Assembly (NCBI GenBank): GCA_000827325.1
Contig: KN832880.1
Span: 786,803 to 850,802 of the forward strand
Reading direction: 5' to 3'
DNA length: 64,000 nt
Origin: Oidiodendron maius Zn
Lineage: Eukaryota > Ascomycota > Leotiomycetes > Myxotrichaceae
Shown: positions 11,582 through 50,774 of the stretch, piece by piece
How positions within the stretch are numbered: position 1 is the first letter of the stretch
How the letters are laid out: each line of letters begins with the position of its first letter
Notes under the pieces: model-generated
What the model was told of the DNA's origin: nothing
Databases searched by the model: none
Seen by the model: only the letters and a program-made list of their open reading frames with translations
Program-made: the position numbers and the translations under genes

Positions 11582-12629
11582 TTACCACTTGAGGATTTTC
11601 TTCGGGAAATATTCGTCAATGAGATCGGTATAGTATATCTGTATACTTGGGCGTCAGCCATTGTGATTATCGTCATATTATATTCTACTCGGGGTTGGCA
11701 TTTAGCAAATGTCATACCTTCAACTCCTCGACATTGGGCACATCATCGCTCTTGCTGTACAAATCATAAGGATTGAAAGCTTTGACTGCCGCGAGCATCA
11801 TTTCATCATGATCATTCATGAGATCACGATAGGCGCCCTGTTGGTGCCAAGGATAGAATGAGTGATAACGAATCATAGCGAGTGCCTCATCAGGGAGAGT
11901 GCTCTGATCCTTGACCACGTGGTATAGATACTCATCGTGACCCCAGGATAGCATAACATTATCGAGACCACATCCAGGGGTATAGATGCCATGCTTTGTG
12001 CTATAGATTTGATTGTTGAAGTCGGTGTTATCTTTGAAGGAGTCTTTGCCATAGATAATACGGTCGTCAAAATCGCAGCCGACAGGGAACGTATCGCCAA
12101 CCACGTCCCATTGGCCTTTGGCCCCGAAGAAGTAGAGCAGTTTACCCAGGTCATGGATCAAACCAGTCAATTGCATCCATCGCGGCTTGCCATCGCGACG
12201 AATGGCTTCGGCGGTTTGAAGAAGGTGGTCAATTTGCGAGAGGGAAGTATCTGGATCGGACTCGTCGATAAGAGTGTTAAGTTTCTCCATGGCTTCCCAA
12301 ATGGTCATCTCGGCCCGAGTCATCGATTTGAATTCATTGCGTGCTCTCAGATTGTACGCCACCGTCTGCTTGGTATGTTGTTCCGAGTAGAAGCTTTTAA
12401 CCCTGTCGCTGGCATCTTCGTACTGTCTGAATTTGGTCTTGTCCTTGTCTGCGTCAAAGTGAGGCAAGTCGGAAATTGCTCGGTCTTCAACTTGTTTCTT
12501 GGAGTTGGCCCGGTCCTTTAAGACATTGATATTTTGAATCTCATCGCATAGATTTTCGAGAGCCTGCCCATCGAGGCTTGTCCTGAACGGGTGAGCTGGT
12601 GGTGCTTGTTGAACTAGGATGCCAGCCAT
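11582..12629 (-). CDS. myo-Inositol oxygenase, copy 1 (set A)
   Basis: This enzyme uses a di-iron centre and O2 to cleave myo-inositol to D-glucuronate. Exons 11718-12629 and 11582-11638 give 322 residues. The iron ligands expected from the mammalian enzyme are all visible: His135 (DHLLQTAEAIR), His159-Asp160 (GLIHDLGKLL), His231 (LSWGHDEYLY), His256 (IRYHSFYPWH) and Asp289 (FNPYDLYSK). The substrate-site signature VVGDTFPVGC is intact, and the protein ends LIDEYFPKKILKW as is usual for the family. The start at MAGILVQQ (12629) matches family length; an in-frame Met further upstream would add an unusual hydrophobic leader. It sits beside an inositol-type transporter and an inositol dehydrogenase. 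The paralogue at 49.7 kb has one extra intron. Confidence 0.95.
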
Positions 12630-13983
12630 AATGACCGGAAAGTATATATTGGCAAGACAAGGGATATTTGGAAGTGGTCTAAATAGAAAGAGACAAAGTC
12701 TCAAAGTTGTAATATATGTGATGGGGACGGGTAACCAAGTAGATATACGTACATCCAGTCAATACCAGTCTGTAAGAAGAGAATGAAATGGCAAAGTGTA
12801 TGGTGGCGGATAAGACAAACGGAGCTAGGTAAGTGGATCTGAGAAAAGGGTTAATATGGAGCTGTTTCCATATTTCCGAGTGCAGGAAATCGTCATTTTG
12901 ACCCAGTGAGTGATCAAAATAAATTATCCTATCTTACACAGTCAACCTCGCGTGACCTGCACTGTATGCAGCTGCTCAGTACTTTTTTTCGCTTGTGCTC
13001 CTCTCGTCATCTAGACGTCGTTTCCGGCTCGTCTTCCCTGTGAGTGATCTGCGAAATAGGAAACTGTCTCCGTAGTGTGGGCAGGTGTTTCCGCGCCTCC
13101 CTGTGCGCTAACTCCGGCATATTCAAGCTCTACCTAGATGCATGACGGATATTCCCTTATGATTTCTTCCCCGCATACATCCCCACATACCCCCGGGTTT
13201 CGCAGCTAGGGCTTATCACGCGGATAGAATCCTACATTCCTCCACACCAATTAAGGCTTCGAAGTATCATTCCGCTTCTCCTTGCATATTCTTGCTTCCG
13301 TACATATCTAACTCTAACCGCAAGGGACTTCCTCAACAACCCTTTTCAAAGCGATTACGCCTCTGCATGATTATCGGCGGGGGCTTCAGCGTAAAACAGG
13401 ATTCTGCACAATTTGGAACCGTGAAAATAATGCGGGTACAATTCATTAGTACTGTAAATGCAAGAAGTGCTCACACATTTTAATTACGTCAAGGAGGCTA
13501 CAACGGTAGCCATTTACCGATCCGGTGTGACTATGGGTGTATGCTCTTTTGGCACTGCTGTTACGACAGGTGTTACGGCGACCCATAAATCCTGTTCTTG
13601 TATTTCTGTCGACCGTGAAGGACTCTCTCATTCTAGAGCGAAAAAGAACCGAGTTCTTGATTCTTTCGTACTTAGAGCTCTGCAATAGTTTGCGCCCTTA
13701 TTAAACCGAGCTCCTGTGAGAGACGAACAAGTCGAGTCTGTGGCTACCTTAGCAATCCCCCACGCCATGTCACGGAGAAAACTGACGAATAGACAAAGTC
13801 TGTTCAAATCAACTGTATTGGAAGAAGAATACTGGGCTAAGGAAGGAAGAGAGGCGGAGAGTCGCGCTCGAATAAATACAGGTTCGCTCGGCTGATCCTC
13901 AGCATAATAAACCTAGCGAATCACGGCCTGTACAGCAACACCAAGTCAACGTGTTTCCGTAACACGCCACGGCAACTTACTTC
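12630..13983. other. Intergenic, upstream of MIOX1
   Basis: This long presumed promoter of MIOX1 ends at the stop of ITR-A. Small ORFs at 13292-13688 overlap on both strands and show no recognisable domain. I found no copy of the 17-bp motif present in the ITR-A/IDH-A promoter. Confidence 0.5.
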
Positions 13984-16355: not shown

Positions 16356-17499
16356 ATGCCACCGAAAAAGCTGCAGGTTGCAGCAGCCGGCCTTGGTCGT
16401 ATGGGAAAGAGGCATGCTTTAAACTTCTTGAACCGCGCTCCTCGTGCAGAACTGGTTGCTGCTTTCACGCCTGATCCCGAAGAAATGCAATGGGCTAAGC
16501 AGCACCTGGAACCCTATGGAGTTACTTTATATGACAACTACGAAAAGATGATTTGCCAACCAGGTCTTGGGGCCGTTGTAATTGGAACGGCCACCTCAGT
16601 ACACGCGGAGGAGGCTATCAAGGCTATGGAAAAGAACTTGCATGTTCTATGCGAAAAGCCTCTGTCGACAGATATTGAAGTTGTAAGTCAAAGAGTTGCT
16701 TCTGCATCTGGCGTTGATTCATAGCTCATCATATCTGATTACTGACTATCAAATATAGTGCAAATCTGTTGCAGAAGCAGCGAAAAAGAGACCTCATCTG
16801 AAGGTCATGTGCGGCTTTTCCCGACGGTTCGACGAGTCGTACCGGGATGCATACAAGAAGACATATCAAGGTCTCATAGGTCGGCCAAGTATCATTCGAA
16901 GCCAAACGTGTGACAAGCACGATCCTTCGGGGTTCTTCGTGGCTTATGCAGCCTGGTCCGGCGGCGTTTTTGTTGATATGGCAGTGCATGACATCGACCT
17001 TACACTTTGGTTCTTTGGCGATGACATTGTGCCAAAAAGCATTTCCGCCCACGGTATTACTGCCGTCCAGCCAGATCTAAGAAAGTACAATGACTACGAC
17101 AACGCTGTAGGAGTTGTTGAGTTTCACAATGGCAAGATTGCTTATTACTACTGCTCTCGGATGATGGCACATGGCCAGGAAGACACCACAGAAATCATTG
17201 GCACCGAAGGAAAGCTCACCGTGAATGGCAACCCTCAGTCGAACTTGGTCAACTTTTATCACGCAGGAGGTATTACGCGGGAAGTGCCAGCCCATTACTA
17301 TGGGCGTTTTGAGATGGCGTTTGTCCAGGAGACTAACGAATTCACTGCCGCGTGTTTGGATGATACTCCCCTTCCAATGAAACTTAGCAATGCTGTAAAG
17401 GCAGTTCAGATAGGCGCATATCTTCAAGAAGCTCTTGTCAGTGGAAAGCAAATCCATTTTGATGAGATTGGGAGAAGGATTGAGAAAGCACAGCTCTGA
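16356..17499 (+). CDS. Gfo/Idh/MocA-family inositol dehydrogenase, copy A
   Basis: Two exons (16356-16682, 16759-17499) encode 355 residues. The N-terminal Rossmann fold starts with AAGLGRMGKRHAL (GxGxxG, NAD(P) binding). The catalytic Lys101 lies in CEKPLS, and Asp182 and His186 lie in VDMAVHDID; this is the K/D/H set of myo-inositol 2-dehydrogenases, with the same D-x3-H spacing as bacterial IolG. The reaction expected is oxidation of a cyclitol ring carbon, giving scyllo-inosose from myo-inositol. The C-terminal beta-sheet domain includes TEIIGTEGKLTVNG and the PAHYYGRFEMAF stretch. It is divergent from ITR-A and convergent with the regulator gene. A sugar or other cyclitol substrate remains possible because the family is broad; context favours inositol. 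Confidence 0.88.
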
Positions 17500-17685: not shown

Positions 17686-19999
17686 CTAATCAGTGTCAAC
17701 GTCCTCATCCCATTGCTCCTTCAGAGAGTTTATAAGTTGTGCCGCTCTCCAACCCGTCCTTTTCTCCATATCCTGTAACAATGAGACAGTGCATTCCCTC
17801 TCTAACTCGTCACGTAGAACGCCACCCCCTGTACAGATAGCATTATTAGACAACTGTCAGGTGTTATAAAGTCGACTAAATAGCGACTTACAGACAGATA
17901 AAGTATGACGTGCAGTAAAGAGAATATTTTCGGCAGCCCTGTTTGAAGCCGCTAGCCCAAGTATCACTAGAAGGTGGTTGCGGACACATTTCTGGACGGA
18001 ATTAATATCAGAGAGCAATGGAATTAGATGGAGGTTTCAAGTTCTCACTTCAATTTTCCTTCCCTGCCGAAGATTCTCATATCCTGAGATTTGTGGTTGT
18101 CGAATCGAGACGGTGAGAACAAGTTTTGCTATGTGGTAGTATTGCAGTGCGAGAGCTTCCGAAATATTAGTTGCCTGCTGGAATATTACATTCCTAGTAA
18201 GCCCCACTCACCATGAAAGGGAGACAGCAGCCAAACTTCAGGAAACGCGCGATGGTGTTCTCGACTGCGAGGAGCGAATCTAATAGGTGTAAATGCAGCG
18301 GGTTTCGTCATGTACCATTCATCGACCTCGCGGTCTATCTGTTGTAGAGCGACTGTAGTCGTATTTTGATCCGGTAGGAAAGCGTAACTCAGAACTTTGG
18401 CTAGAAGGAAGACCATCTGATTAGCCAATGATACATCATCTTTTCTTTGAAAGGTTTTCGAGTTGTGATAATTTTCTAAACGTGTCTTGAGCGGTTGTTG
18501 AGATACGAGGGAGACGTAAATATCCTGTCGGAGGCAGAGCCAGGCTGCAGCCTCTCCAAGTCCTCCCGAGCTACCAAATCTCGAAATAGAATTCAAGAGT
18601 TTTGTTGTGCCTATCAGATGGCATCGATTATCAAATGCTAAGAGTATATGATATTAGTTCGGCATTTATGACGCATTGGAAGAGCGGTTCTTACCATCCA
18701 TCTCTTCGTACTGACGTAATATTGAGATTGCTGCAAGGACATCTTCGTTGATTTCCTCGCTCGGTTCTGACAATTTAGGTATAAGGCATTGAACGCATTC
18801 GTTATGGTATTGTAGCGCCTCAGTCTCATCATACTCAAAATTTCGACTCATGTGTCTTGATGAGAAGGCACAAATTGCGAGTCGCAAAACTGGTTGATGA
18901 AGTGCTCGGCGTGGAACTTCTATCTCAAAATGCCGCTTCAAATCCGTGATATCGGCCTGCCTTGCTCTGTTAGATTGAGGTCTCGTTCTCATTTCCGCCG
19001 CAACCGAAGTACCGACCCATAAAGCCATATTCTCGATGAAATTCCGTATCAAAACTGCTTCCCTGTCTGTGAGGAGAGTAGTAGTGGACTGGGAGCCAAC
19101 GACATCCGGCATATCGTTCGACACCGTAGTCGCAGGTGAGGCAAATGTGTGTGCTGAGTATTGACGAGAATATTGTGGAGTGTATTCCGACTCTGTAGCT
19201 CCTGTTTAAAATTAGACTACAGATATCCATATGTGACGCTTGATTGCTGATTACCGCCAGGTCCTGACTCCCCCTGGTTGACTTCGGGAGGGATTATCTC
19301 ATAATGTTCTTGATTGGAGTGAGAGGCACCAAATATTGACTGCATAGCATTGTCATCGTCTCGTCCTTTTTCCACGGTCTCTAACCCCCTCGAGGATTGG
19401 AACCGACTGTCTTGTGCAAATGTGGCAGCTAGCCCCATAAATTGATCTTCCGGAGAGCTTGTGAGTGCATCTTTCCTATAAATTTGGATGAGACCTGGTG
19501 TCTCGTCATGGAATTGAACTTCGAGACTCAGTGATCAGATTAACCGCTCTTGGAGGAATCTCAACACATACTTGAATTTTCCAGTGGTATCCAGGTCTGG
19601 GTCTCTGAGAACGACAGATCGGATTCCTTCCCTCGCACATGCAGGTTCCGGAAGCGAATATTGGGTTCCCGCACACATTGGATATTCCCTTCCATGCATT
19701 GAAAGCAAGAGGGTAACTTTGTGTCACCTACAAATGTAAGTCCAAGAACAAGAAACTGAATACATGATATCTACATTTCACATGTCGAGCTGTTATTGAG
19801 CAGAAACAGATTTAGTATCCTCGAACAAAGCAGCAGAAACTGAGGGAGATCTCTTAGGTTCTGTACGCACCCCGACAACCTTCACTTCAGAGAATGTCAG
19901 CCGTTCAATAGTGCAATAAAAGAGAAGACAGCGTTACCATCCAGCAATCAGTCTCTCTCTCTTCTTCCGGTAGCCATCGTTGGCAGAGTTCTTCGGCAT
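17686..19999 (-). CDS. Zn2Cys6 transcription factor of set A (fungal-specific regulatory domain)
   Basis: I splice ten exons on the minus strand: 19938-19999, 19871-19884 (14 nt), 19775-19789 (15 nt), 19572-19727, 19255-19518, 18695-19201, 18212-18610, 18049-18155, 17892-17991 and 17686-17828. All phases agree, giving 588 residues. The zinc cluster is built across exons 1-4: Cys21, 24, 31, 38, 41 and 48, in the canonical C-x2-C-x6-C-x6-C-x2-C-x6-C spacing, preceded by basic YRKKRERL. A Ser/Thr/Gln-rich linker follows. The rest resembles the second fungal-specific transcription factor domain, with ILRQYEEMDG, WYMTKPAAFTPIRF, PEVWLLSPFH and a C-terminal amphipathic helix. Its place at the end of set A makes it the likely pathway regulator. 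It has a full-length paralogue at 44.4-46.5 kb. The splice model is inference, strongly constrained by the cysteine pattern. Confidence 0.82.
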
Positions 20000-21935: not shown

Positions 21936-22281
21936 ATATAACGATGGCTCACGCCTAGTGTTAGGTAAGTTGTTGAGTGGGTTGGGTAAGGCAGGGATAC
22001 TATCAAGTCAAGAAGTAATATATAAACTTAATAGGTTACTAAAGTAGTAATAAGATACTTTATTTGAGTTAAACATAAAGCTTCTATCTATTAAGGAATA
22101 TATACTGTTTATATAGAACCTTCATCTGTCCTGGATCAGCCAGATTATTTGGATTATCTTATAATCCTTATAATCTCTATAATCCTGTATATATTATATG
22201 ACTCTTCCTGAACCACTTACAAGGGTTCTCTGTACAGGCTGCTGCCTACTAAGCCTTAAGCCCTTGCTTTGTGTTTGTAAC
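21936..22281 (-). repeat. 3' LTR of the gypsy element (left copy)
   Basis: This 346-bp direct repeat has a partner at 28315-28660. Nearly all differences I could see by eye between the two copies are transitions, and the A/T variant usually lies in this left copy (for example GTTCGTAAC on the right against GTTTGTAAC here). Confidence 0.85.
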
Positions 22282-25200
22282 ACTAGCCCCTCTCTAGTTA
22301 GTATTGTCTTGATTGCTTAAGACCTAGAGGGTGAACTTTGTTCAAATGCTATATTTCTTCTTTTCTTCCTATTATACTACCTACTTGTTTAAAGAAAACT
22401 GAATACTATATAAAGTTATATATATATATTATACTGAGTGGTAATGAAATGTCTCCTTGCTCCTGTTATAAGCAGAAGGATTTGAAATGCCTTATAGCTA
22501 CCGATACTTGTTGCTGTTCTAAGTGTATATGATCTAGTATAAAATATAATGTTCTTGGCCCTTCTTAGGCTGACTAGATAGCCCTGGAGCAGGGGGAGAA
22601 GAAGCTGTACAAGCAGCTAGAGGCTGCTAAGGCTAAGTATCGGAAGTTTGTTGAGGGTCTTCTAGAGACCCAGAATTATATAGAGCGTTTTAAAAAACAA
22701 AGGGAATTGTTTATCGCTTGTATAGCCACTATATTTCGTTATAGTTTGAAAACCCTAAATGAACTAGATATAGTAAAAGAGGTAGAGGTATATAAGGCTG
22801 CTTCCTAAGCTCTTATACCCGCTGCTTTAGCTGGTATATTAGGCGACCTTTCTAGCAAACCTCTTGACTTCTCTAGAGTTGCTTTTAATACTGATCTTCC
22901 TATATTACCTTCTTTCTGGGATTCAATTAGTATTACTAGTGAAACCTCCTTAAGAGCCTCTAGTAGTTAAGATTTTCTTCTGGTTCTTATAAATTATCTG
23001 TTTGACTATATCCTTTCTATTTGATTAAGTATTCTTGCTGACCCTTTATAGTTGTTCTAGTGTCTAGGATTTCCTTAACCTTATATTCCCCTGGATTGTT
23101 TTCTGGTTAGAGTTTGGCTTATATTACTACTAGTATATCTCCCTTTACTAGTTCTAGTAGAGATATATAGAATATAGGGTAGAGTCTGGAGCTTTTAGGT
23201 AGCTATAGTTTATAATTAATAGGTCTAACTTTTTCTAGAATTCTAAATGGTTCTAGTTTCTTAAAGTCTAGCTTACTGCTTGGTTGTTTGGTTTTAATAT
23301 TCCTTTATAGTAGGTATACTTTATCCCTCTCTTCTAGTAGAGGTCCTATACTATGCTTTTTGTTAGCGTTTACTATTGTTTATTACTAGCTAAATATAAT
23401 ATCCTTTATAAGCTACTCCTTTAGTTATTATAGTTTATCTATAAATACTCTAGATAATTCTGCTTTTCCTTTATCTTTTCTTGGCTATCTATAGGCCTCT
23501 GGTTTATAGCTAAAGTTAGTAAAGAAAGGTAAAGTCCTTATTGCTTTACTCTTTATACTATTATAAGCAAACTGTACTAGTAACAGCTATTCTATTTAAT
23601 TGTTTTGTTTATAATTAATATAGTTTCTTAGATACTGTTTTAAGGTTTAGTTTAGTTGTTCTATTTGATTATCTGTTTAAGGGTAAAATACTATTAATAG
23701 TTTATAATTTGCCTTTAGTCTTGCTATAAGAGATTACTAGAACTTTAAGATAAACAACTTGTCTTTATCTAAGATTATTTCTTCTAGTAGTCTATATTAA
23801 CTAAGAATAATCTTCAGGAATATATATACTAATTCTAGAGTATTGCTGCTTTCTTTATAGGGTATAAAATACCTATACTTGGTTAATCTATCTATTACTA
23901 CCTATATTGAGTTATAGATAACCTTAGTTATTGGTTCCTTTAATAGTAGAAGCTTAATAATAAAATCAAAGGCAATAGATTTCTATACCCTATCTAGTAT
24001 TAGTAGTAGTTGTAGTAATCTATAAAGTGTATATTGGTTTGTTTTGCTTTTGTTATATAAGATATACTTCTCTACTATCTTTTCAATTTCCTTCCTTATC
24101 CCTAGGAAATAATAGTCCCTTACTAATCTTTTAAGGGTTCTTATAACTCCTTAATATCTATATATAGGGAGTATATATTGCCTCTATATAAAGTCTTGTT
24201 TTATTCTAGTTAGGATATAGATAAGCCCTTTAAATTGTAATATACTCTAGTAATTGATTAGGAAGTCTATAGTTGGTTCTTTAATAACTCTTTATATATT
24301 TTTGTCTTTTATATATATACTCTTGATTGTCTTCTCTAATTGTATATCTTCTATAACTAAAATAGTAGCTAATAGTTTATAGTTGTATTTTATACCCTTA
24401 TTATTAGCTTTTAATATCGCTTAGGGCCTCTCTATAGGTTTCCTGGTATAGTCTTATTATTAGCTTAGGGTGTTAGCTCTAGTGTTTTCTGATCCTTTCC
24501 TATATACTATAACAAAGTTATAGACTGATAATACTTTAGACTATTAGACTTGTCTTTAGTTTAGGATCTTAGTTATAGTGAAGAAAGTAAGGTTCTTGTA
24601 ATTTATCTAGATCTATATCTAATATATAGATCCTTTAAGGTAAACTCTTTACTGTTTATATATAATGATTATTACTAATAGTTCTTTATTGTATATATTA
24701 TAGTTTAACTTGGCTAGTGATAGTTTATATAAGTAGTATATAACTAGTCTTAACTTCCCTTGCTTATTAACTTATCCTAAACAAGCTCTGATAATAAAGT
24801 CAGATATATCTGTTTCTAGGATAATTTTCTGTTTTAGGTTAAAGGTAGTAAGTATTAGTGCTTATATAAATTTGTACTTAAGTATATTAAGGGCTTCCTA
24901 GGCTATCTTATTCTATATAAATTTCTGGTCTTTTTTTATTAGTCTTGTTAAGGGTACTATTACCTTTAAGTAATCCTAGATAAACTATTAATAGAAGTTA
25001 GTAAATCCTAAGAAGGATTATACTTCCTTGATAGTTTATAGGACTGGCTACTTAAGGATAGTCTTTACCTTTTCCTTATCTATCTAGATTCTATTTTCTT
25101 TAATAATATATCCTAGGAACTTAAGTTCCTTTTTATAAAACTTGTATTTTCCTGGTTTAATTAGTAGTCTTGCCTGCTTAATCTTATCTAGTACTTTCTT

Positions 25201-28200
25201 AATATATTTAATATACTTAGTTAGTATCTTAGAGAATATAAGGATATTATCTAAATAAGCAACTATAAAGATATCAAGATATTTGTATAGCTAGTTATTA
25301 ATTATTTGTTGATAAGTTATAGGGGCGTTAATCAGTCCTTTCTATATAACTAGAGTCTTATAGAGGCTATAGTAGGTATAGAATACTGTTTTCTATTCCT
25401 TACCTTTCTTTATTTTTATTATATAATATACTCTCTATATATTAAGACTTATAAAGTATTTAGCTCCTTAGAGTCTGTTATATAATTTATTGATTAGTAG
25501 TAGTATATACTTATCCTTAATAGTAATATCGTTTAGCTGTCTATAGTCTATATATAGCTATAGATTACTGTTCTTTTTTGGTATAAACAGAACTAGGCTT
25601 ACTACTAATAATATAGATAGTTATATAAATCCTTTTACTAGATTCTTATTAATGAATTTCTTAAGAACTTCTAATTCCTTTTCTAATATCTAGTATAATA
25701 GTCTAAAAGAAGGTGTCTTTCTAGGCTTAATAGGTATCTTGTAATCCTATAGCTAATGCTTTAGAAGTACCTTATTTATAGACGCTTCTTGGAATAGTGG
25801 CTTGTATTCCTTATATACTACTGGAATTTGTTTCAGTATAGAGGCCTAGGCTAGGTCCTCTTCCTCTTTAGCAGTTATATATAACTGCTTGTAGGGTAGA
25901 AGTCCTATCCTTCCTTTAGGTACTATACTATTGCTTCTATACTAGTATTAGTTTATAGTAATATATTCCTTTATCTAGTTGATTTAGGGGTTATAGAATT
26001 ACAACTAAAGTATACTAAGTATTACCTTATAAGTATCTATAGTAATAATATCAAATTGAATATCTTTAGTATATCCCTTTAATATAGTTATTGATAATTT
26101 CTTAGTTTTATAGGTTATTATCCTCTTATTAGATCTGATTTCTCCCCTATTAACAAGGAGTAGTTGGTATAGTGCTCTCTTTTCTAAAGTCTAATACCTT
26201 CCTTATATAACTGTTTATATATTAATAAAGTTGTCTATTGCTCTTAAGTCTATTAATACTCTAAGCGTTTATCCTTTTATAAGGATATTTAGGAAAATCT
26301 AGTATCCTTTTTCTACTATATTTAGTTCTTTATATAGTCTTCTATAGCTTTACTAGTGTCTTAATATAGGCCTTCTTATATTAATATTAACTAGTTTTTT
26401 GACTTTATTCTAGCTTTATTGATATAAGTTACTAAGGTTTAGAGTATTTTTGTCTAGTAGACTAGTCTATTCTTTTTGGGCTAATATCCTGCCTCCTCCT
26501 TACTGGGTTTATATATTGTATACTTATTAGTATAGTAGAAGCTTTAAGCAAGTTCTCTATATTAAGGGTAATTAGTCCTTGCTATATTCTTGGCTTTTCT
26601 ATATTCCTCTAGCTACTGTTCTATAAGTTTCTTCTTCTTAATTGATTTATTGAATTCTTGTCTTAAATAGAGTAAGAGGTTAATGTTTATAGCTAATTTG
26701 TCTTAGTACTACTAGCTCCTTTTAATACCTAGCTCTACTGCTTTATCTATCTTCTCTATTTGTTTCTTGATTATAAGTTCTAGATATATTATATTAGTAT
26801 AGTAGTGCCTTATAGATTCTATAATATCTTCTACTTTATTAATTAATAATACTAGGTTTCCTTTATAATCTCTATATTGTTTCTTGATCCAATTTATTAT
26901 ATTATAGAAATTATCCTTAGACTCTTTAAGGTATTTCTATATAGATGCTAATCCTGCTAGTATATAGATATCCCTTTCTTCCTGTCTTGTTATATTTAGT
27001 GTTTCTTGGGAGGATATCCCTTTAGATTCCCTTTATTCTTCCTCTAGCTCTAGATCTAGAGTTATCTGCTCTTGTAAGCCCTTTAAGTCTTTAGTATCTG
27101 AAGAATTGCTGTTTATATTATTGCTTCTTGTTTCTATAAAATTAACTACTACTAGGCTTTATAAAACATGCTTGTAGTTGTCTTTGTTGTCCAGGTCTAC
27201 TTCTACTAACTCCTCTGTCTAAGTAGTCTAGTCTTCTTGTCTTAAGGATAAGGAAGATAATTAGGATACTAGTATATAGGCCTAAGTACTGAAAGTTCCT
27301 ATAAAGCTTAACTTCTTATAAGGGCTAAATGTTGTTCCTATAAAGGAGATATTGCACTCTATTGGTCTGTTATAGCCACTATAGTTTATAGTGTTAACCT
27401 TGCCTCTATATAGTCCTTTTTGTTTATTTCCTCTAGACCTATAGTTATATACTATATATCTAGGTTTCCTATATTGGAAATATAATTTCTTCTCTATATA
27501 GTTTTGTTATTCCTAGAGTAATAGCTCCTTTCTATATATAGCATCAAGTTCTATTAGTTAAGGGCTATAGTGGTTTCTATAATTATACTGCTTCTTGAAG
27601 GTTAGGTTATAGAACCCTCTTTTCTTCTAGACTCTTTTATAGAATCGATTATTGATATATATAGTATCTTTAATTAGCTCTCTAAACAAATTAGGGAAAT
27701 CTGTTCTGGATAGTTTGTCCTTTATAACCTCTTTTAGTCCCTTATAATATTTGTCTTTAAGTACTGTATTATTCTATCCTGTTTTGATAGAATATCTATT
27801 AAACTCTACTGTATATATAGCTATAGATCCCTTTTATTTCAGGGACTGGATCTTTCTGACTACTTGTTTGATTTTATTGAAATCTCTAAAAGTATAGTTA
27901 AGTCTCTTTAAGAATCCCTTAAAGGTTATAAAGATATAGTATATCTCTACCCTTATTTTAGCTATTACCTGCCCTTATAGGCTAGTATTAGCAAGGTAGT
28001 CCTATATAAATCCTTTAATCTAGTTTAATACTTCTCCCTTAAGGAAGGTAATAGTATATAATACCCTTTTGGTTGAAGAGGCGAAACATTAGGTATAGAA
28101 AGTTAGATATAAGTTCAGTTAAATAAGGAAGCCCTTAAGCTTGGACTTCTCTCTAGAGTAGGCCTAAGGTGTTTCTATCTTAATGCCCTTATTTAGTGAT

Positions 28201-28314
28201 CCTATAAACAGTTTAATTGCTTAGTACTTGCTGGTAGAACTTTCTCCTTTAATGGAAGATATATTGACTTCTTGATAACGATAGTGTATTGGTACCTTAG
28301 GTTAGGTGCTTAAA

Positions 28315-28660
28315 GTATAATGATAGCTTATACCTGGTGTTAGATAAGTTATTGAGTAGGTTAGGTAAGGCAGGGATACCGTTAAGTCAAGAAGTAATAT
28401 ATAAACTCAGTAGGTTACTAAAGTAGTAATAAGATACTTTATTTAAGTTAAGTATAAAGCTTCTATCTACTAAGGAATATACGCTGTTTATATAGAACCT
28501 TCGTCTGTCCTGGATCAGCCGGATTATTTGGATCATCTTATAATCCTTATAATCCCTATGATCCCGTATATGTTACATGACTCTTTCTGAGCCACTTACA
28601 AGGGTTCTCTGTGCAGGCCGCTGCCTACCGAGCCTCAGGCCCTTGCTTCGTGTTCGTAAC
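28315..28660 (-). repeat. 5' LTR of the gypsy element (right copy)
   Basis: Partner of the left LTR, same length and orientation. It retains more CpG and CpA sites than the left copy and than the internal region, so it is closer to the ancestral sequence. It is followed by the ACCCT target duplication at 28661-28665. Confidence 0.85.
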
Positions 28661-30645: not shown

Positions 30646-30647
30646 TA

Positions 30648-31084
30648 ACGTACTTCATAAGCGAGCTGCGCATATATGCGAGCTGCGCACCTGATTTTAC
30701 ACCAATATTATCAAAAATTGCACATTTATATATCAACAACAGCAGAACCTATCACTTATATAATATACCTATATATTAATCTATAGTCTAGAAATATCTG
30801 GTATAATTTATAGGCAATAAAAATAGATTAATTGCCTATAAAGTTAGAAAATCTCTAAAAATGCTGCTTTTTAACCCCTAATTTTAATATATAAGCATTT
30901 CTAGCTATTTAAGATCTTAAAACTTGGCTTATGATTATTATAGTAGATAAAAAGCTTCAAATATTAGTTTTGAAGCCTATATATATTGTTGTTGTTAATA
31001 TTATAGAAGTCAATTTTCGATGATTTTGGTGTAAAATCGGGGTGCGCAGCTCGCATATATGCGCAGCTCGCTTATGAAGTACGT
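30648..31084. mobile_element. 437-bp MITE with about 75-bp terminal inverted repeats
   Basis: The left end starts ACGTACTTCATAAGCGAG and continues through GCTGCGCATATATGCGAGCTGCGCACC; the right end (about 31010-31084) is its inverted copy with few mismatches. A TA dinucleotide flanks both ends (30646-30647 and 31085-31086), as for Tc1/mariner/pogo elements. The AT-rich core has no coding capacity. Inside each TIR the motif GAGCTGCGC is repeated around an ATATAT centre. Confidence 0.8.
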
Positions 31085-32927: not shown

Positions 32928-34050
32928 CTATAATATCGCTTTTTCAACTCGTCGGCCGGTTCTATCGAACCAAATCTTCCGACCCGAATTCAACGACTCT
33001 TGTAATGCACAACCTATTTTAACCGCCTGAACCGCACCGGATAGCTTCATCGGTAATTTCTTATCATCTAGACAGCATGCGGTAAATTGATTTGCTTCAT
33101 TCACAAATGCCTGCTCAAACCGGCCGTAGTAGTGGGCAGGGATCTCCCTGCGAATCCCAGTTGGTTCATAGATATTTACCAAATTTGACTGTGGTTGCGC
33201 ATTGACAGTTAGCTTGCCAGAAGTGCCAATGATCTCTGTAGCATCGTCTTGTCCCGCTGCCATCATGCGGGAACAGAACAGATATGCTATTTGCCCCCCG
33301 TAGAATTCCACGATGCCTACTGCATTATCACGATCATTATGCTTCCTTAGCTCAGGCTGTACTGCCGTGATACCGCTCGCTACGACAGACTTGACCTGCG
33401 AGTTTTGGCCGAAGAACCACAGGGCTAGGTCGATATCATGGATAGAGCAGTCAACAAATATCCCACCCGAAAATTCGGCGTATGCGACGAAGAAGCCGCT
33501 TGGATCGAGCATATCGCAGGTCTGGCTGCGAAAGATTGATGGCCGGCCTATCAATCCTGAATCCATCTTCTCCCATGCATCGCGGTACGAGTCATCGAAA
33601 CGGCGAGAGAATCCACACATGACCTTTAGATGAGGTTTCTTCTGCGCTGCATCTACCACCGATTGGGACTGCAAATCATCAGCCTGGGAAATTATATGTA
33701 TTAACAGGTAAGTGCAATCTTACAACTTCCACGCTCGTTGATAGTGGCTTTTCACACAACACATGGAGATTTGCATTAATGGCCTTGATTGCCTGCTCAG
33801 CGTGAACTGTCGTCACAGATGCAATCACAACGGCCTGTAGCCCCTCTTGCTTCAGCATTTCATCATAGTCTTTGTATAGTCGAACGCCAAACGGCTCAAG
33901 ATGCTGTTTCGCCCATTCAATTTCAGCGTCATCAGGAGTGCTGGCTGCGACTAGCTGGGCTCGTGGAGTCCGTTCGAGAAAGTGGAGAGCATGGCGTTTG
34001 CCCATACGCCCGAGACCTGCACAGGCAATCTTGAGGGTTTGGACTGGCAT
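32928..34050 (-). CDS. Gfo/Idh/MocA-family inositol dehydrogenase, copy B
   Basis: Exons 33724-34050 and 32928-33668 give 355 residues, the same two exon lengths as copy A (327 and 741 bp) and the same intron position. The NAD-binding AGLGRMGKRHAL, Lys101 in CEKPLS, and Asp182 and His186 in VDCSIHDID are all conserved. The protein is collinear with copy A over its whole length without gaps, with clearly diverged surface residues, so this is an old paralogue and not a recent duplicate. Differences around the active site (VASGITAVQPELRKHND here against SAHGITAVQPDLRKYND) are modest. It is the set B gene nearest the transposons and stands away from the other set B genes. Substrate by analogy: myo-inositol or a related cyclitol. 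Confidence 0.88.
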
Positions 34051-37284: not shown

Positions 37285-38924
37285 ATGGCCGCAATCCCCG
37301 AAGTTGTATCGTTGAGCCACACAGCAGGCATTGAGAATGAAAAAAGCCGGCTAAGATATTCGATCTCCAACGGCCATAATGATTCCCCCTCGTCCCAAGC
37401 CAGCGACTCCCCCCAAGCATGGGAGAAGCCCGGATTCAAAGCGAGATCCTTTCGAACGTGGCGTAGCATCCAGCGATACATCTGGGACGATCCCGACAAG
37501 CCAGCCGATGAGAAGAGATTCCTTCTGAAGCTGGACATCTTCCTCCTCACCTACACGTGTTTGGGTTATTTCTGCAAGAATCTTGACCAAGCAAATATCA
37601 ACAATGCGTATGTATCTGGCATGAAGGAGGCCTTGAACATGGGAGGGAGCGAGTTGACGTATATGAGCAATGTTTTCACGGCTGGGTATGTCATCGGCCA
37701 GCTGCCCGCTGTCATTCTAGTGACAAAAATTCGACCGAGTATTCTGGTGTCGACCATGGAAATCCTGTGGGCGGTTTTCACGTTTTGCTGCTCAAGCGTC
37801 AAGACGGTACCCCAGCTGTATGCCCTGAGGTTTCTTGTCGGGTTGTGTGAGGGGGCCTTCTTCCCCGTGATCATCTATCTGATCAGCTCTTGGTGTAAAT
37901 TAGCCTTCAATTCCATATATTCGTCGCTAACGTGCAGAAAGACACAAAGGTAGAGCGTGGCAAACGGGTCACTATCTTTTACGCGACATCCACTATGGCT
38001 GGCATGTTTAGTGGATATCTCCAAGCAGCTGCGTACACAAATCTCAAGGGCGTCATGGGCCGTGAGGGTTGGCAATGGCTTTACATCATATGCGGTATCA
38101 TCTCTCTTCCCGTCGGTGTCATTGGATATTTCTTCAACCCCGATTTCCCAGAGAACAGTCGAGCTTTCTATCTCTCACCGGCAGAAACCGAGCTTGCACG
38201 CCGACGACTCCTGCGCGATGGCTACAAGCCACTTGGCACATCTGCATGGGACAAGACAAAGATTTTTCGGATTATGAAGCAATGGCAATTTTGGGTCTTA
38301 CCCCTCGGGTACTTTTTTATTCAAAGCAGTTTTCCGACGGCCCAGCCAGCTTTTGCCCTTTACCTGAAAGCAACAGGTCGTTCTGTATACGAAATCAATG
38401 TCTGGCCTACCGGACAAGCAGCAATCGGCGTCGTCGTCCAAATTGCAGCAGGCATGCTGTCCGATTCTCCCCTCTTCAATGGCCGGCGCTGGCAAGCCAT
38501 TACTGTCATGCAAGCTGGTACATTCATTGGTGCCATCATAATAATTGCGTGGAACGTCCCCGAGGGGGCTAGATTCTTCGCGTACTATATCACGTATATG
38601 TGTGCCGGCGTACCAGGAATCTTTTATTCCTGGTTCCCAGATTTGATGCCACATGATCATGAAATGAGAGGATTCTTGACGGCGTTTAGTAATATTGCAA
38701 GCTATGTTAACCAGATCTGGGTCTCAGATGCGGTATGGAGGACGGTAGAAGCCCCAAAGTTCAAGCCAGGGTTTATTTTTGCGGCCATAACGGATGCTGG
38801 TATCGTAGCCCTCAGTATTGTAATGCATTATCTTCAGCTGAGGGATACTAAGATAAGGGATAGAGAGGCAGGCGGTGTCGCCCTGGTGGATGTGGAGGCG
38901 CCAATTGAAGCTGAGAAGTCGTGA
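37285..38924 (+). CDS. MFS transporter, anion:cation symporter (Dal5/pantothenate-like) family
   Basis: Two exons (37285-37894, 37942-38924) give 530 residues. Landmarks are GYFCKNLDQANINNAYVSGM, the TM1 signature of the Dal5/Liz1-like family, then NVFTAGYVIGQLPAVIL, LRFLVGLCEGAFFPVI and SSWYTKVERGKRVTIFY across the intron. The acceptor at 37941 is chosen because the nearer AG at 37937 would create a stop. Members carry organic anions such as allantoate, pantothenate, nicotinate or aromatic acids into the cell. Next to a CYP53-like P450, uptake of a carboxylic acid substrate is plausible; that is inference. About 12 helices, with a 60-residue hydrophilic N-terminus. Confidence 0.87.
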
Positions 38925-39029
38925 ATCGAAAAGATCTCTTAGATAGTTCAACTTTCACTTGATTCTCTGTTTCCTCTGGCCCAGATGTCTCTTAAATTAG
39001 AGCGATTCAGGCACGCCTCATTTCCTCTT

Positions 39030-39600: not shown

Positions 39601-39830
39601 TGCCTGTCACGATTGAATTCAAAAAGCCACAGCAAGGGGAAGCCGGTTTTGCAAACGTTTGTATGATTCGGTGAAAGATTTCGGGATAGAGGAGTTGGTA
39701 CAAATATGCCAGTCGCAAAGCAAGTACAGATGTTGCAGTCTGCTCTGCGAAGAAAGCAGTCCCATAAGTTGAACAATGAATGGACTCAAAGTGCTATTGT
39801 GTCTTGCTGTCTTACACTCTCGCAGCTGCA

Positions 39831-42620: not shown

Positions 42621-44310
42621 ATGTTTGGGTACATTTTGGCCAGCATTACTATTCTTCTCTTATTCATCTATTTCATCATTTCTCCCGTCATCGCCTTCTA
42701 TAGAGATCCCAAAGGACTCCGAAAATATCCAAGTCTCAACTTTTTGTGTGCTTTCTCTGATCTTGGCTTCATATGGGAAGCAAATAAGCCGCTCCGATGT
42801 AGAGCCTTGCTGGAGGCGCATAAAACATCACCTGTCGTTCGGATTGGCCCTAATTCTTTATCGTACTCCGATCTCTCTGCCATCAAAGTAAGAGCCCTCA
42901 AAGGCGCCCATTCGTACTCTCGTACTAACGAGCGACTAGGATATTTATGGCCACAACACAAAATGTGTTAAAGATGTCTTTTACGACACTCTCGCTGGGA
43001 CACACCACCATCTCGCGGACGTCGTAGATAAATCTGATCACCAGCGTAAACGACGGATTCTATCGAGTGCTTATGCACTCAAGAATCTGGAGTCTTGGGA
43101 GTATAAGGTTTCTGATAAGGCTAACCGCTTGATCAAAGCATTCGACGCAAGATGCACCCTTCCGTTAAAGGAAGGAGCTAAGATCCCAGCTTCTGAAGAC
43201 TTAACGGTCGACTATCGCAGTTGGACAAACTTTTTCACGTTGGATGCTATCGCCGACATCGGTCTGAGCGAGCGGTTGGGATTTCTGGATGCTGGTGACG
43301 ATCTGGTAACGGCAGAGAAGATGGACGGGACCCTCTATAAAGTCAACTATCGCGCATGCCTTCACGCCACAGCTCGAGCTCAAGCTGGCCTTGTGTGGTG
43401 CTACGACTGGTTCCCGTTCTTGATCAAGATGTCGAAGCTCGTTTCCGCACAATACCGACAAAGGTGGAAACTCAACGAGGGATGGAACGACATTGTGTAT
43501 CATCGAGCTACTCAGCGCCTTAAGCGATACCGTGCTGGAGAGAAACTGGATGATTTCTTCCAGGCACTTATGGAGGACAAAGGTGGTAATCCTAATGGCA
43601 TGGAGTGGGGAGAAATCGTTGCGGAGGTATCGATCATGAGTGAGTCCCCACATCTCACAAATCTAAGAAATTAGTACTGATCATAGTCATCAGTGAATGC
43701 TGGATCCGATACTACTGCCATAGCAATGAATAATGTAATGTACAACCTTCTCAAGAACCCCAGCGCGCTGTCCAAACTTCGTGCAGAAGTTGATTCGGTC
43801 CTTGGCCCTTCTGAGGCGGTTGCTGCCTACGACAAAGTCCGTCATCTCCCCTATCTGCGGGCTTGCCTAGACGAGTCCCTTCGCCTTTATCCACCCACGA
43901 CTTTTGGCTTGCCCCGCCGGACGCCTCCTGAGGGTATCCCGATCCTGGGAGACTACATTGCAGGCAACACGTCAGTTTCAATCTCAGCATACGTTGCGCA
44001 TCGCAATGAGAAGGTCTTCCCTGATCCGGAGGCATATCGTCCGGAACGGTGGCTAGGTCAAGATTCAAAGGATCTGCAGGGCGCATTTTTATCATTCAGT
44101 GCTGGTGCAAGAGGTTGTATCGGCAGAAACATTAGCTACCTAGAGCAGACAGTCTTGCTGGCATCCGTGGTGCATCGGTATGACTTTGCATTGCCCACCC
44201 CAGATTGGGAACCGACGAGATGGGAGACCTTCAATCTATCACCAGGACCAATGCCGTTGAAAGTGTGGAGAAGAAGCCTTGGGGTGCAGAAGGGTTTGTC
44301 GGCTTATTAA
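42621..44310 (+). CDS. Cytochrome P450, CYP53-like (benzoate 4-hydroxylase type)
   Basis: Three exons (42621-42887, 42940-43639, 43694-44310) give 527 residues. An N-terminal anchor helix (ILASITILLLFIYFIIS) is followed by the I-helix MMNAGSDTTAIAM, the ExxR motif DESLRLYPP, PERWLGQDSKDLQ and the heme loop FSAGARGCIGRN with Cys464. From FGLPRRTPPEG through the heme loop to SPGPMPLKVWRR the sequence strongly resembles CYP53 enzymes such as fungal benzoate para-hydroxylase, from my knowledge of that family. CYP53 members hydroxylate benzoate and related aromatic acids at the ER membrane. The I-helix splice site at 43693 is fixed by recovery of NAGSDTT. Its stop lies 58 bp from the convergent regulator gene. 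The exact substrate is not certain. Confidence 0.9.
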
Positions 44311-44368
44311 AACAAGCTAGCTACTTCCACAGAAAATTGAGTCCACCTTATTCAGACATAAAATGACA

Positions 44369-47116: not shown

Positions 47117-48961
47117 ATGGATCTTTACCCTCAGCCAGATGGAAAGGCAGACGTCTCCCACGTGGAAAGTCTCTCACAATCGGGGTCCGCACATTCTCTA
47201 GAAGATATCAATGCCCTCGACTCAATCGAGGGAACTCAGTCTGGCAAATTTGCCTGGCTGGTCTCTATAACTGCTGGTGTCGGCGGGCTCCTATTTGGTT
47301 GGTTTTGGATCGAGATCACATGGCTACGATGCTAAATAACTGCAGGATATGACACAGGAATTATCTCGGCTGTCTTAGTCTATCTCAATGATGACTTGGG
47401 GGAGGTTTTGTCATCCAGCCAGAAAGAGCTCATCACATCCATCACATCTGGTGGCGCTTTCATCGGAGCTATCGTAGCTGGACTAACTGCAGACCGTTTC
47501 GGTAGAAAAGGTGCAATCTACATGGGATGTATTTTGTTCATTATCGGAGCTGTTCTGCAAGCAGCAGCCTACTCCCTTGCCCAAATGACGGTTGGAAGAT
47601 TGGTTGTCGGGTTTGGAGTGGGGTCTGCCGCTATGATCGTGCCTGTGAGGAGTCCCAACCTATCCTGCCTCGACTATACCATTTAGCTAACACACCCTCC
47701 TCAGCTGTATATCGCAGAGGTAGCACCAGCTAAATATCGTGGACGAATGATTGGTTTAGACAATATGTCTATCACTGGTGGTCAACTTGTGTCCTATGGT
47801 ATCGGGGCGGGTTTTGCTAAATTGGATCATGGATGGAGAGCTATGGTTGCTCTTGGTGCCGTTCCAGCCATTTGCCTTTGCTGTCTCTTACCATTTTGCC
47901 CCGAATCGCCCCGTCAACTGATCTATCATGACAAGCATGAAGAGGCTGGTAAAGTCATTCAACGAATCTTCCCTCTCGGAACGCCAGAGCAAGTCCAACA
48001 AAAGGTCAGGCATATAGCTCTTCATGTCCAAACAGCAAAGAGTTTGCAGCAGGGAAAAAGTAGGCTCTGGTTACTGAAACAGCTATATGTGGTCCCGAGC
48101 AATCTCAGAGCTTTGATTGCGGCCTGCGGACTCATGGCTATCAGTCAACTCGGAGGCTTTAACAGCCTCATGTACTACTCATCGACTCTCTTTGCCCTTG
48201 TGGGCTTTTCGGATCCTGTTGCAGTGGGAACAGTCATTGCAGCCACCAATTTTATCTTTACTTGGGTCAACCTAATGCTTGTTGACAGGATTGGCCGAAG
48301 GCGTATCCTCTTATGCACCATGTGGGGAATGGTAAGTCGAAAGCCAATAGCGACAGCAATTGCTTACTCTATATAGGCTCTTTTCCTTTGCCTCGCAGCT
48401 GTTGCTTTCCATTGGATTCCAATCAACCATAATCTCTCTCTCAAGTCCAACGATATTGGTTGGCCAGCATATGTGGTACTCACATGCATGATCATTTACG
48501 TCGGGTTCTACTCTTCAGGCATGGGTAATACGGCTTGGCTCTCGTCTGAATTCTTCCCCATGGAGATTCGCGCTTTGGGAACAATGATGGTAAAGTCCAT
48601 GTTGAACATAAGCGGACGGTTTTAACGGGCGTATAGTTGACTTGCTCCTGCTGGGGCTCCAATATTATTGTCGCATCGACATTTCTAACTCAAATGGAGA
48701 ATACCACTCCGTCCGGCGCATTTGGTTTCTACGCTGCCATTTGCTTCTTTGGTTGGATGTTCGTTCTTTCCCTTCAATTGATGCATTGTACCACCATGCT
48801 GACATGACAATAGTGCTGTGTATTTCTGCTATCCAGAAGTAAAAGGCATGACTCTCGAAGATATTCGAGAGGTCTTCGCCCACGGCTTTGGTGTGAAGCA
48901 CGCAAGAATGCTTCAAAAAGAAGCCAAACTTCGTCATGACAAGAGCAAGAGTCAGGTGTAA
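47117..48961 (+). CDS. myo-Inositol/sugar MFS transporter, copy B (ITR-like)
   Basis: Six exons (47117-47297, 47346-47644, 47705-48331, 48377-48589, 48637-48758, 48814-48961) give 529 residues. It is collinear with copy A: GLLFGYDTGIISA, ADRFGRKGAIY, VGRLVVGFGVGSA, PAKYRGRMIG, PESPRQLIYHDK, DRIGRRRILLC, and GWIAVYFCYPEV matching GWIFVFFCFPEA. Twelve helices are expected. Copy A has a single intron while this gene has five, and none of the five lies exactly at copy A's intron position, so the two are old paralogues or have separate origins. Its neighbour downstream in the same orientation is MIOX2, 785 bp away. Inositol is inferred as substrate from context and similarity to ITR proteins. The last intron uses GTTCGT as donor, which is unusual but fixes the frame. 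Confidence 0.86.
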
Positions 48962-49746
48962 GCACAGCGGTTACCTTGGAGGTCCAGAGAGAGTACATCG
49001 GACTAGTGTATAAGAATTAAAATAAATGATTCAACTGAGTGCTTCTGATACCATGCTTTTTCCAACGAGATCCACGAAAGATTGAAGGTATAGAAATCAT
49101 CGGAAAGCTCAGGACATAGGACGTAGGCAGATCGTAGCAAAAGTCTCTGTCCTCGCGTTTTCGAATCTGAGACAGTTTACGAATGTGACATGCAATTGCC
49201 TCCATATCGAACGAGCAAAAAGCCTGCAGAAGAATTCCACTGGATCAAATTCCAAGGCCATCCAAAATTTCCTCATTCGGAAAATTGCGGATAGGAACAT
49301 CAGTTAAAGTTTAATCCGGTTCAAGTGTGACCACGTAAATTCCGAGATCGGTAATTCGACCAAAGGCGGAAAATGCGCTAGTCGCATTCACCCACTCCTG
49401 AAATGGTAATGTTGCCTCTTTGAGAACGAAGCTAGCAATGTCTCTCGCTTCACTATCTCCTTTCCTTCCGAACCATCTGACCCAATGACATATACTTTGT
49501 TGAAACACGTAGTAAACTGTAGATGCAAATGTATCAATTTATGTGCTCATCCAGCATCCAGCGTAGTAAATATAAATGTCATGTCGATACATTGATATTA
49601 CCCTTCTAACAAATCGTCGCGGTTTTTTTACAGCTCAATTTGAAGACCCCATTCGCAGTATTTGTGGTGAAAAATTATCATTGCTTGCCAGTTGTTGAGC
49701 CTCGTGCTCTATCTGTGTCACATTCAGGGTTAAAATATTTGATACA
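48962..49746. other. Intergenic between ITR-B and MIOX2
   Basis: 785 bp upstream of MIOX2. Minus-strand ORFs (49017-49508) give short peptide stretches such as FQEWVNATSAFSAFGRI in broken frames; they could be an old gene remnant but no family is recognised. Confidence 0.4.
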
Positions 49747-50774
49747 ATGTCTCCTTCGGCAATTGTTACAATCTCAACCGGCAATGAAGGAAAGCAACTG
49801 GAAGAGACTTCTGATAACATCGAGTCTGTACATGTTTTGCAAGCCGAACTGGAGGACGGGGCTTTTCACAAGTCTCAGTTCGATTCAGAGAAGGATAAGA
49901 CTAAATTCCGACAATACGAGGATGCGTGTGATCGAGTCAAGAACTTCTACCGTGAACAGCATGAAAAGCAGACAGTTGCATACAATCTGAAGGCCAGAAA
50001 CGACTTCAAGTTTAAAGTCCGTGCCGAAATGACAATATGGGAAGCCATGGAGAGGTATAGCGTCCGCGTGCCAACTATTATTTTAGATATCTAACAACTG
50101 ATAGGCTGAATACCCTAATTGATGAATCTGATCCGGACACGTCATTATCTCAGATCGAACACCTTCTCCAAACCGCCGAAGCACTCCGGAACGATAGAAA
50201 ACCACGGTGGATGCAGTTGACGGGTCTGATCCATGACCTTGGAAAGCTTCTTTTCTTTTTCGGAGTTGAAGGCCAGTGGGCGGTCGTTGGGGATACATTT
50301 CCAGTCGGATGTGCATTCAACGAGAAGATCATCTATACTGACAGTTTCAAGAACAATCACGACTACGGTCACGAGATATACAGTACCAAGAATGGAATCT
50401 ATTCTCCTGGGTGTGGCTTAGACAGCATTATGCTATCTTGGGGGCATGATGAATACTTGTACTACGTTGTAAAGAATCAGTCAACCTTACCTCCTGAGGC
50501 GCTAGCTATAATCAGGTACCATTCGTTCTATCCGTGGCACTCTGCTGGTGCATATAAGGAGTTCATGAACGAGAAGGATAAGTTGATGCTGGAGGCTGTT
50601 CAGGAGTTTAACCCGTATGACCTATACAGCAAGAGCGATAAGGCACCACAAGTGGAGGAACTTAAGGTAAGTTATATTCTCACTGAAGAGGAGACAGGGC
50701 TAATATTATCCGCATAGCCATATTATCTCGAGCTCATTGACGAATTCTTCCCACAAAAAGTTATCAAGTGGTAA
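49747..50774 (+). CDS. myo-Inositol oxygenase, copy 2 (set B)
   Basis: Three exons (49747-50054, 50105-50666, 50718-50774) give 308 residues. All di-iron ligands are conserved: His122 (EHLLQTAEAL), His146-Asp147 (LIHDLGKLL), His217 (SWGHDEYLY), His242 (RYHSFYPWH) and Asp275 (FNPYDLYSK). The substrate-site VVGDTFPVGC is intact. The last intron is at the same place as in copy 1 (after VEELK), but copy 2 has an additional intron after WEAMER that copy 1 lacks. The N-terminal 40 residues differ strongly between copies; the cores are close. Product: D-glucuronate from myo-inositol. It closes set B. Confidence 0.95.

Follow-up and report, generated by a model that had tools for sequence, protein, structure and literature searches.

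Layout of the locus

The 64,000-nt stretch analyzed here (hereafter the window; G000:C11:786803-850802) belongs to the 45.9-Mb genome of Oidiodendron maius Zn, a Leotiomycete of the family Myxotrichaceae and not a member of the Eurotiales, as a first-pass annotation of this DNA had assumed. Within 39 kb, four gene types occur twice, as that annotation had recognized: an inositol oxygenase (MIOX), a sugar porter, a dehydrogenase (DH) of the Gfo/Idh/MocA superfamily, and a Fungal_trans_2 regulator (transcription factor, TF). All eight genes, here assigned to sets A and B, were confirmed at their positions (Table 1), and each of the four types has more than two copies genome-wide. Gene models were obtained with a purpose-made small exon-intron predictor and corrected by hand where the reading frames required it; the predictor splits or joins some models wrongly, e.g., DH-B was fused with the gene of a 2-oxoglutarate (2OG)-Fe(II) oxygenase, and MIOX-B was short of part of an exon.

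Set A consists, in order, of MIOX (-), porter (-), DH (+), and TF (-). Set B, read on the opposite strand, consists of MIOX (-), porter (-), TF (+), cytochrome P450 (-), P450 reductase (+), a permease of the major facilitator superfamily (MFS; -), 2OG oxygenase (+), and DH (+). The two sets are mirror images with regard to MIOX, porter, and DH: MIOX and porter are adjacent on one strand, and the DH lies on the other. Moreover, the arms containing MIOX-A and MIOX-B were picked up as an inverted repeat. In the whole genome, three of the four MIOX genes have a DH within 17 kb, which was equaled in one of 2,000,000 random placements (4 MIOX, 3 intact DH); functionally related genes are thus linked beyond chance, as expected of a fungal metabolic gene cluster. 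Between A and B, identity amounts to 70% for MIOX, 70% for DH (248/355 residues), 53% for the porters, and 29% for the regulators.

Table 1. Genes and other features of the window, with the matches on which their assignment is based (aa, amino acids).
Feature	Position	Strand	Evidence
Carbonic anhydrase, short model, 146 aa	4875-5578	-	PF00484 38.8 bits
RTA1-family membrane protein gene	6825-7865	-	PF04479 213 bits
MIOX-A, inositol oxygenase, 322 aa	11582..12629; exons 11582-11638, 11718-12629	-	PF05153 396 bits
Porter A, sugar porter, 525 aa	13984..15622; exons 13984-15111, 15173-15622	-	PF00083 345 bits; TIGR00879
DH-A, Gfo/Idh/MocA inositol-dehydrogenase-like, 355 aa, group II	16356..17499	+	PF01408; PDB 4mkx/4n54; TIGR04380 253 bits
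TF-A, Fungal_trans_2 regulator core; N-terminal exons uncertain	17686..19695	-	PF11951 32.2 bits
AT-rich LTR-type element between the sets	21937..28615	.	300-nt direct repeats at both ends, RIP-like composition
DDE transposase-type ORF, 440 aa, just before DH-B	31305..32627	+	PF03184
DH-B, Gfo/Idh/MocA inositol-dehydrogenase-like, 355 aa, group I	32928..34050	-	PDB 4mkx 198 bits; TIGR04380 261 bits
2OG-Fe(II) oxygenase, 389 aa	35224..36393	-	PF14226 + PF03171; 74% paralogue at C2:846649
MFS_1 permease	37285..38924	+	PF07690 95 bits
NADPH-cytochrome P450 reductase, 696 aa	39831..41993	-	Flavodoxin/FAD/NAD domains; best PDB 6t1t P450 reductase 421 bits
Cytochrome P450; 3' end of model uncertain	42621..44366	+	PF00067 200 bits
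TF-B, Fungal_trans_2 regulator core; N-terminal exons uncertain	44369..~46224	-	PF11951 27.2 bits; 29% to TF-A
Porter B, sugar porter, 529 aa, six exons	47117..48961	+	53% to porter A over 524 aa
MIOX-B, inositol oxygenase, 308 aa	49747..50774; exons 49747-50054, 50105-50666, 50718-50774	+	PF05153

The paired enzymes, porters, and regulators

The assignment of both oxygenases to the MIOX family is sound at the sequence level: PF05153 (cut-off 25 bits) is matched by MIOX-A with 396 bits and by MIOX-B with 329 and 45 bits in two pieces, and MIOX-A matches the solved inositol oxygenase 2huo with 254 bits. Six iron-ligand positions (His135, His159, Asp160, His231, His256, and Asp289 of MIOX-A, as aligned with 2huo) are invariant in all four MIOX genes of the genome found with PF05153, i.e., A, B, and two further copies, C1 and C4; the corresponding ligands in mouse MIOX are His98, His123, Asp124, His194, His220, and Asp253. 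The hand-spliced MIOX-B is identical to OIDMADRAFT_56825 (P0122). Upstream of MIOX-A, the first half of a Zn2Cys6-like motif (C-x2-C-x6-C) is present at 12938-12970 (-) with stop codons around it, possibly the remnant of a regulator.

The genome encodes three intact DHs and a decayed one. For both DH-A and DH-B, the nearest solved structures are the bacterial inositol dehydrogenases 4mkx, 4n54, and 3cea. A catalytic Lys together with Asp-x3-His is the family signature of the inositol 2-dehydrogenase IolG; Lys101, Asp182, and His186 are kept in both proteins, and the Lys and Asp-x3-His motifs recur in the alignments of DH-A to the three structures. Porter A passes the cut-off of the sugar porter family TIGR00879 (332 bits; cut-off 237.8), while porter B, some introns of which were placed by hand at weak donors, is assigned as a sugar porter solely via its identity to porter A. 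The first-pass annotation had read the region as an inositol-utilization locus carried twice. With a MIOX above the Pfam cut-off, an inositol-dehydrogenase-like DH, and a sugar porter, both sets do look like inositol-utilization genes; the notion of one locus present in two copies, however, did not stand, as set out below.

The pairing of the regulators is weak judging from their sequences: one 150-residue exon of TF-A has four genomic matches besides itself, among which a copy at C2:1079621 (70 bits) outscores TF-B (48 bits). A Zn2Cys6 domain was considered for the regulators and rejected, as a pattern search yielded only half a motif in TF-A (19713-19675) and Pfam searches of the upstream frames gave no zinc cluster. 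Upstream of DH-A and DH-B, the 9-mer AACCCGTCA occurs at 15872 (-) and 34426 (+), both times followed by T. This 9-mer, noticed post hoc, is a near-match of CCCCGCAA and is confined to these two sites within the 164 kb analyzed.

Ancestry of the two sets

Sister relationships of the paired enzymes were assessed in a careful tree of 44 of 120 listed matches plus the four O. maius copies for MIOX, and of 29 of 197 distinct listed matches plus the three O. maius copies for DH (bootstrap not quite settled). Forcing A and B together made the MIOX tree 58.5 log units worse (approximately unbiased [AU] test, p = 1e-6) and the DH tree 217 units worse (AU p = 6e-9). Quick larger trees (63 of 120 listed matches plus four copies for MIOX; 69 of 197 plus three for DH) also separate A from B. 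MIOX and DH therefore each have a separate ancestry in the two sets. A segmental duplication should leave paired genes that are sisters of like divergence, which is not what was found for MIOX and DH, and, since A/B sisterhood is rejected for both, the idea of one locus carried twice is unsupported.

DH-A and DH-B fall into two deep groups of the Pezizomycotina. Group I roughly follows taxonomy, with DH-B inside a Leotiomycete group of seven rows (support 91/91, careful tree). Group II is patchy: among the matches listed for DH-A, the highest identities are to Glonium (90%), Zopfia (88%), Scytalidium (86%), and Aspergillus nidulans AN2378 (83%), the former two being Dothideomycetes. In the quick tree, DH-A is sister to the Leotiomycete Scytalidium (SH-aLRT support 89), a placement that the careful tree leaves unresolved. 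Both DH groups are present in Aspergillus nanangensis, Rasamsonia byssochlamydoides, and Penicillium hispanicum. MIOX-A clusters with Exophiala and metagenome rows in the careful tree (seven-row clade, 100/99; 97/87 with Exophiala), and this clade shifts its position between the quick and the careful tree; constraining MIOX-A with the Leotiomycetes was not rejected (p = 0.10). MIOX-B forms a long branch that is compatible with a Leotiomycete placement (p = 0.34).

The porters may be an exception, as their sequences suggest closer kinship than in the other A/B pairs. When the main exon of porter A was compared with the genome (111 matches including itself), porter B was the best other match (54%, 315 bits; next 207), in a search run in this one direction, from porter A. 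Unlike MIOX and DH, some genes of the two sets may thus have a local origin in common.

Predicted pathway and other MIOX loci

For the joint function of the sets, we infer the following substrates and steps. The porter in each set would import an inositol, and MIOX would open myo-inositol to D-glucuronate, which would then enter the fungal L-gulonate/L-idonate/5-keto-gluconate pathway encoded elsewhere. The DH would interconvert inositol isomers (e.g., scyllo- to myo-inositol via scyllo-inosose) and thereby supply MIOX rather than start a second route; the paired scyllo-inositol dehydrogenases of Bacillus would be a precedent for such isomer feeding. The regulator in each set could provide co-regulation.

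A second route had been part of the first-pass annotation, according to which each set encodes both the glucuronate route via MIOX and a keto-inositol route via the DH. In genome-wide profile searches with bacterial models that ignore introns, IolB had no match, IolE a single match of 24.5 bits (cut-off 290), and IolD 11 matches, the best of 172 bits (cut-off 715), and there was no weaker Iol match within the window; the same searches passed the cut-off in 3/14 (IolB), 2/14 (IolE), and 3/14 (IolD) prokaryotic control genomes. Accordingly, no keto-inositol branch is recognizable, and because the two-route claim fails on the downstream enzymes, a DH that feeds isomers to MIOX is preferred.

The genome contains two more MIOX loci. 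A third inositol-type cluster (G000:C1:6380599-6406193, at about 6.39 Mb) carries MIOX-C1, an intact DH (80% to DH-B), and the decayed DH, along with a sugar porter, a QuiC-like TIM barrel protein, a Fungal_trans regulator, a PhyH-type protein, a short-chain dehydrogenase/reductase (SDR), a transketolase, and a Zn-alcohol dehydrogenase. The TIM barrel gene was tried as IolE-like and rejected, since its nearest NCBIfam model is the 3-dehydroshikimate dehydratase QuiC (92 bits; cut-off 1200). The decayed DH beside MIOX-C1 (G000:C1:6390335-6390808) has two in-frame TAG codons, broken frames, and a composition unlike that left by repeat-induced point mutation (RIP). In the careful tree, MIOX-C1 forms a cluster (100/99) with Penicillium roqueforti and Paecilomyces variotii copies, and its placement with the Leotiomycetes was rejected (AU p = 4e-55; the group was named after inspection of the tree). 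The fourth gene, MIOX-C4 (G000:C4:2396232-2398958 onward), falls among the Leotiomycetes in the careful tree and is likely the resident copy. It adjoins a Zn-dehydrogenase, with L-idonate 5-dehydrogenase as best NCBIfam model (124 bits), and an SDR nearest to KduD (268 bits); gluconate 5-dehydrogenase models follow further down. The two neighbors fit the published A. niger steps GluE (PMC5306355) and GluF (PMC5814732), and their sequences suggest that C4 is a MIOX-to-gluconate cluster.

The oxidative block in set B

The first-pass annotation had also seen an oxidative module within set B, and the block of P450, reductase, 2OG oxygenase, and MFS permease is indeed real and is flanked by DH-B on one side and TF-B/porter B on the other. 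P450 and reductase are divergently oriented with 627 bp between them. The reductase has 38% identity to its next genomic match, and for the main exon of the P450 no other genomic match exceeds 36.2 bits. Searches of Pfam, solved structures, and NCBIfam named no substrate for the P450 or the 2OG oxygenase and returned nothing inositol-specific for the genes of the block. A 43-bp inverted repeat (91% matched; 34801-34843 and 39621-39663) flanks the 2OG oxygenase and MFS genes.

Alternative explanations

Taken together, the region probably holds two inositol-catabolic sets of different ancestry, at least with regard to MIOX and DH, placed side by side and with the DH as isomer feeder to MIOX. Several observations weigh against this interpretation. 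Both DHs miss the cut-off of the IolG equivalog model TIGR04380 (253 and 261 bits; cut-off 355), so that their substrate may be other than inositol. The NCBIfam and PDB matches of the porters name only general sugar porters, and both neighbors of MIOX-C4 remain below the bacterial NCBIfam cut-offs (469 bits for the Zn-dehydrogenase; 339 bits for the SDR). As the Iol models are bacterial, the controls prokaryotic, and introns were ignored, an unrelated or much-split fungal keto-inositol branch is possible. A promoter screen (76 spaced CGG/CCG patterns and 7-9-mers) returned no significant shared pattern: the best one, CCG-N4-CGG, occurs in 6/10 core promoters and 8/40 predicted genes, which is non-significant after selection from 76, with porter A and DH-A sharing one region and the 40-gene background including core genes. 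Finally, a single, very ancient block duplication with subsequent gene replacement could likewise account for the mirrored order and the close porters. In this scenario, a MIOX-porter-DH-regulator cluster was duplicated in mirror image, later gene replacement or uneven rates blurred the kinship, and set B was opened by the oxidative block and transposons. The mirror-image arrangement of MIOX, porter, and DH in both order and orientation, the inverted repeat at the MIOX arms, and the rank of porter B as best genomic match of porter A would fit; the rejected sisterhood of MIOX and DH does not, and neither do regulators of 29% identity, of which TF-A is nearer to the C2 copy, which makes such a duplication unlikely. 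Alternatively, set A or its MIOX might have been acquired by horizontal transfer from another class (e.g., a Chaetothyriales-like donor) and settled beside a resident Leotiomycete set B. The position of MIOX-A next to Exophiala, the patchiness of group II with Glonium and Zopfia as the closest listed matches of DH-A, and the Leotiomycete surroundings of DH-B point in this direction. However, a Leotiomycete MIOX-A was not rejected, DH-A may be sister to Scytalidium, the donors indicated by the two genes disagree, and the base composition of set A is ordinary. Because transfer is suggested but not demanded by the tree, in which the clade of MIOX-A is not stably placed, it is kept as a rival only, and an improbable one.

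The presence of both a MIOX and a DH in each set is what had led to the two-route proposal, which we regard as very improbable given the Iol searches. Whether the oxidative block belongs to set B at all is evenly balanced: it might instead be a separate oxidative or secondary-metabolism cluster that interrupts the set, in line with the divergent P450-reductase pair, a P450 main exon without near paralogue, and the lack of any inositol-specific feature in the searches made. On the other hand, the block is fully enclosed by DH-B and TF-B/porter B, and no secondary-metabolism synthase was found among the ten window proteins run through Pfam, the other models being judged by eye. A further, rather far-fetched possibility is that the two DHs act as an oxidize-then-reduce relay and that the P450, its dedicated reductase, and the 2OG oxygenase first remove plant decorations (e.g., O-methyl groups); two joined clusters of different ancestry would then form a broad funnel for plant cyclitols. 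In such a relay, one DH would make a keto-inositol from a non-myo inositol and the other would reduce it to myo-inositol for MIOX.

Mobile elements between the sets

An element of the long terminal repeat (LTR) type lies between the two sets within an AT-rich stretch at 20-30 kb; its 300-nt direct repeats start at 21937 and 28316 and are 89% identical. When 20 of 108 candidates were scored, the element matched 20 other genomic stretches of more than 1.5 kb (two of them neighbors on C37), 19 of which are 87-91% identical and one 80%. Dinucleotide ratios are RIP-like, with TpA/ApT up to 1.58, as judged by the customary RIP index thresholds. The open reading frame (ORF) of the DDE transposase type has no other near-identical copy in the genome at the DNA level. 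Just before it, a perfect 48-bp inverted repeat is found at 30644-30691 and 31041-31088, with arms 349 bp apart.

Occurrence in other fungi and relation to known systems

The cluster interpretation was also to be checked against related species, where orthologues might have been unlinked. Twelve other species are common to the DH-B and MIOX match lists, and eight of them were comparable by their best-listed copies, with linkage read from locus tags and contig sizes and not from gene order; Paecilomyces variotii, Rasamsonia emersonii, Penicillium atrosanguineum, and Bathelium mastoideum were excluded, as strains or assemblies differed or were unmatched. The result is mixed: in 5/8 species, MIOX is found on the same contig as a group I DH, but in the other three (Coleophoma cylindrospora, C. 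crateriformis, and Phialocephala subalpina) the two genes lie on different contigs. Linkage is most direct in Aspergillus nanangensis, with consecutive tags for MIOX (FE257_012653) and group I DH (FE257_012654), and in Rasamsonia byssochlamydoides (VTN77DRAFT_1759 and _1763), with tags four apart on contigs of equal size. For P. hispanicum, Penicillium sp. IBT 35674x, and Saccharata proteae, a common contig is indicated by equal contig size alone, which is weak evidence for contigs of several Mb. In A. nanangensis and R. byssochlamydoides, the DH of group II and the listed MIOX are on different contigs. In P. hispanicum, MIOX, group I DH, and group II DH are all on a contig of the same size (3,378,398), so that a similar pair of neighbors may exist there. 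As MIOX-DH linkage recurs, the pairing itself is not new; among the fungi compared in this way, only O. maius showed two such sets linked in mirror image and carrying DHs of different groups, with P. hispanicum as a potential second case.

The first-pass annotation knew of no described fungal cluster with such a doubled layout. This agrees with the titles and abstract openings listed (e.g., 12 of 291 and 10 of 9,120 matching papers), which describe no ascomycete MIOX-DH-porter-regulator cluster and contain nothing on inositol use in O. maius; what does not hold is any novelty of the MIOX-DH pairing. The closest counterpart in ascomycetes might be the clustered D-glucuronate pathway of Aspergillus niger, where gluD-gluE and gluF are described, GluE being an L-idonate 5-dehydrogenase (PMC5306355) and GluF a 5-keto-D-gluconate reductase (PMC5814732). 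Like the O. maius sets, these genes represent clustered fungal sugar-acid catabolism, and the GluE and GluF families are nearest to those beside MIOX-C4. Unlike the two multi-gene sets of O. maius, however, gluD-gluE is one divergent pair, and both papers name inositol once, in a reference title, and in the passages available mention no MIOX, inositol DH, or inositol porter (PMC5306355; PMC5814732).

In Cryptococcus neoformans, inositol serves as a carbon source through MIOX (PMC2584100, PMC8561382). As far as the abstract openings go, this resembles O. maius in fungal inositol use through MIOX, but C. neoformans is a basidiomycete, and a paired, linked arrangement of DH, porter, and regulator goes unmentioned there. 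With regard to the bacterial iol pathway (IolG, IolE, IolD, IolB), the O. maius DHs belong to the IolG superfamily, whereas they stay below the IolG cut-off and the genome has no IolB match and no IolD or IolE match over the cut-off. Several MIOX genes, as in O. maius, are reportedly present in C. neoformans as well. For Aspergillus fumigatus, one paper lists both an inositol oxygenase (AFUA_2G10230) and a transporter of myo-inositol (AFUA_4G01560), and in one isolate of Verticillium dahliae, potato extracts are reported to induce a myo-inositol 2-dehydrogenase gene. Judging from the titles and abstract openings listed, fungal inositol use looks little mapped at the level of gene clusters. The two A. 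fumigatus tags denote different chromosomes.

Overall, the locus is real and consists of ordinary enzymes assembled in an unusual way, with two inositol sets that differ in ancestry placed side by side and one of them interrupted by an oxidative block. Inositol is a plant sugar alcohol, and O. maius is a root partner, an ericoid mycorrhizal fungus; if the funnel for plant cyclitols existed, it would constitute a plant-cyclitol locus in such a fungus. If two sets of different ancestry do lie side by side with the DH as isomer feeder, as we favor, a catabolic region would have been built by juxtaposition instead of duplication, and the role of MIOX-linked DHs in fungi would become directly testable.

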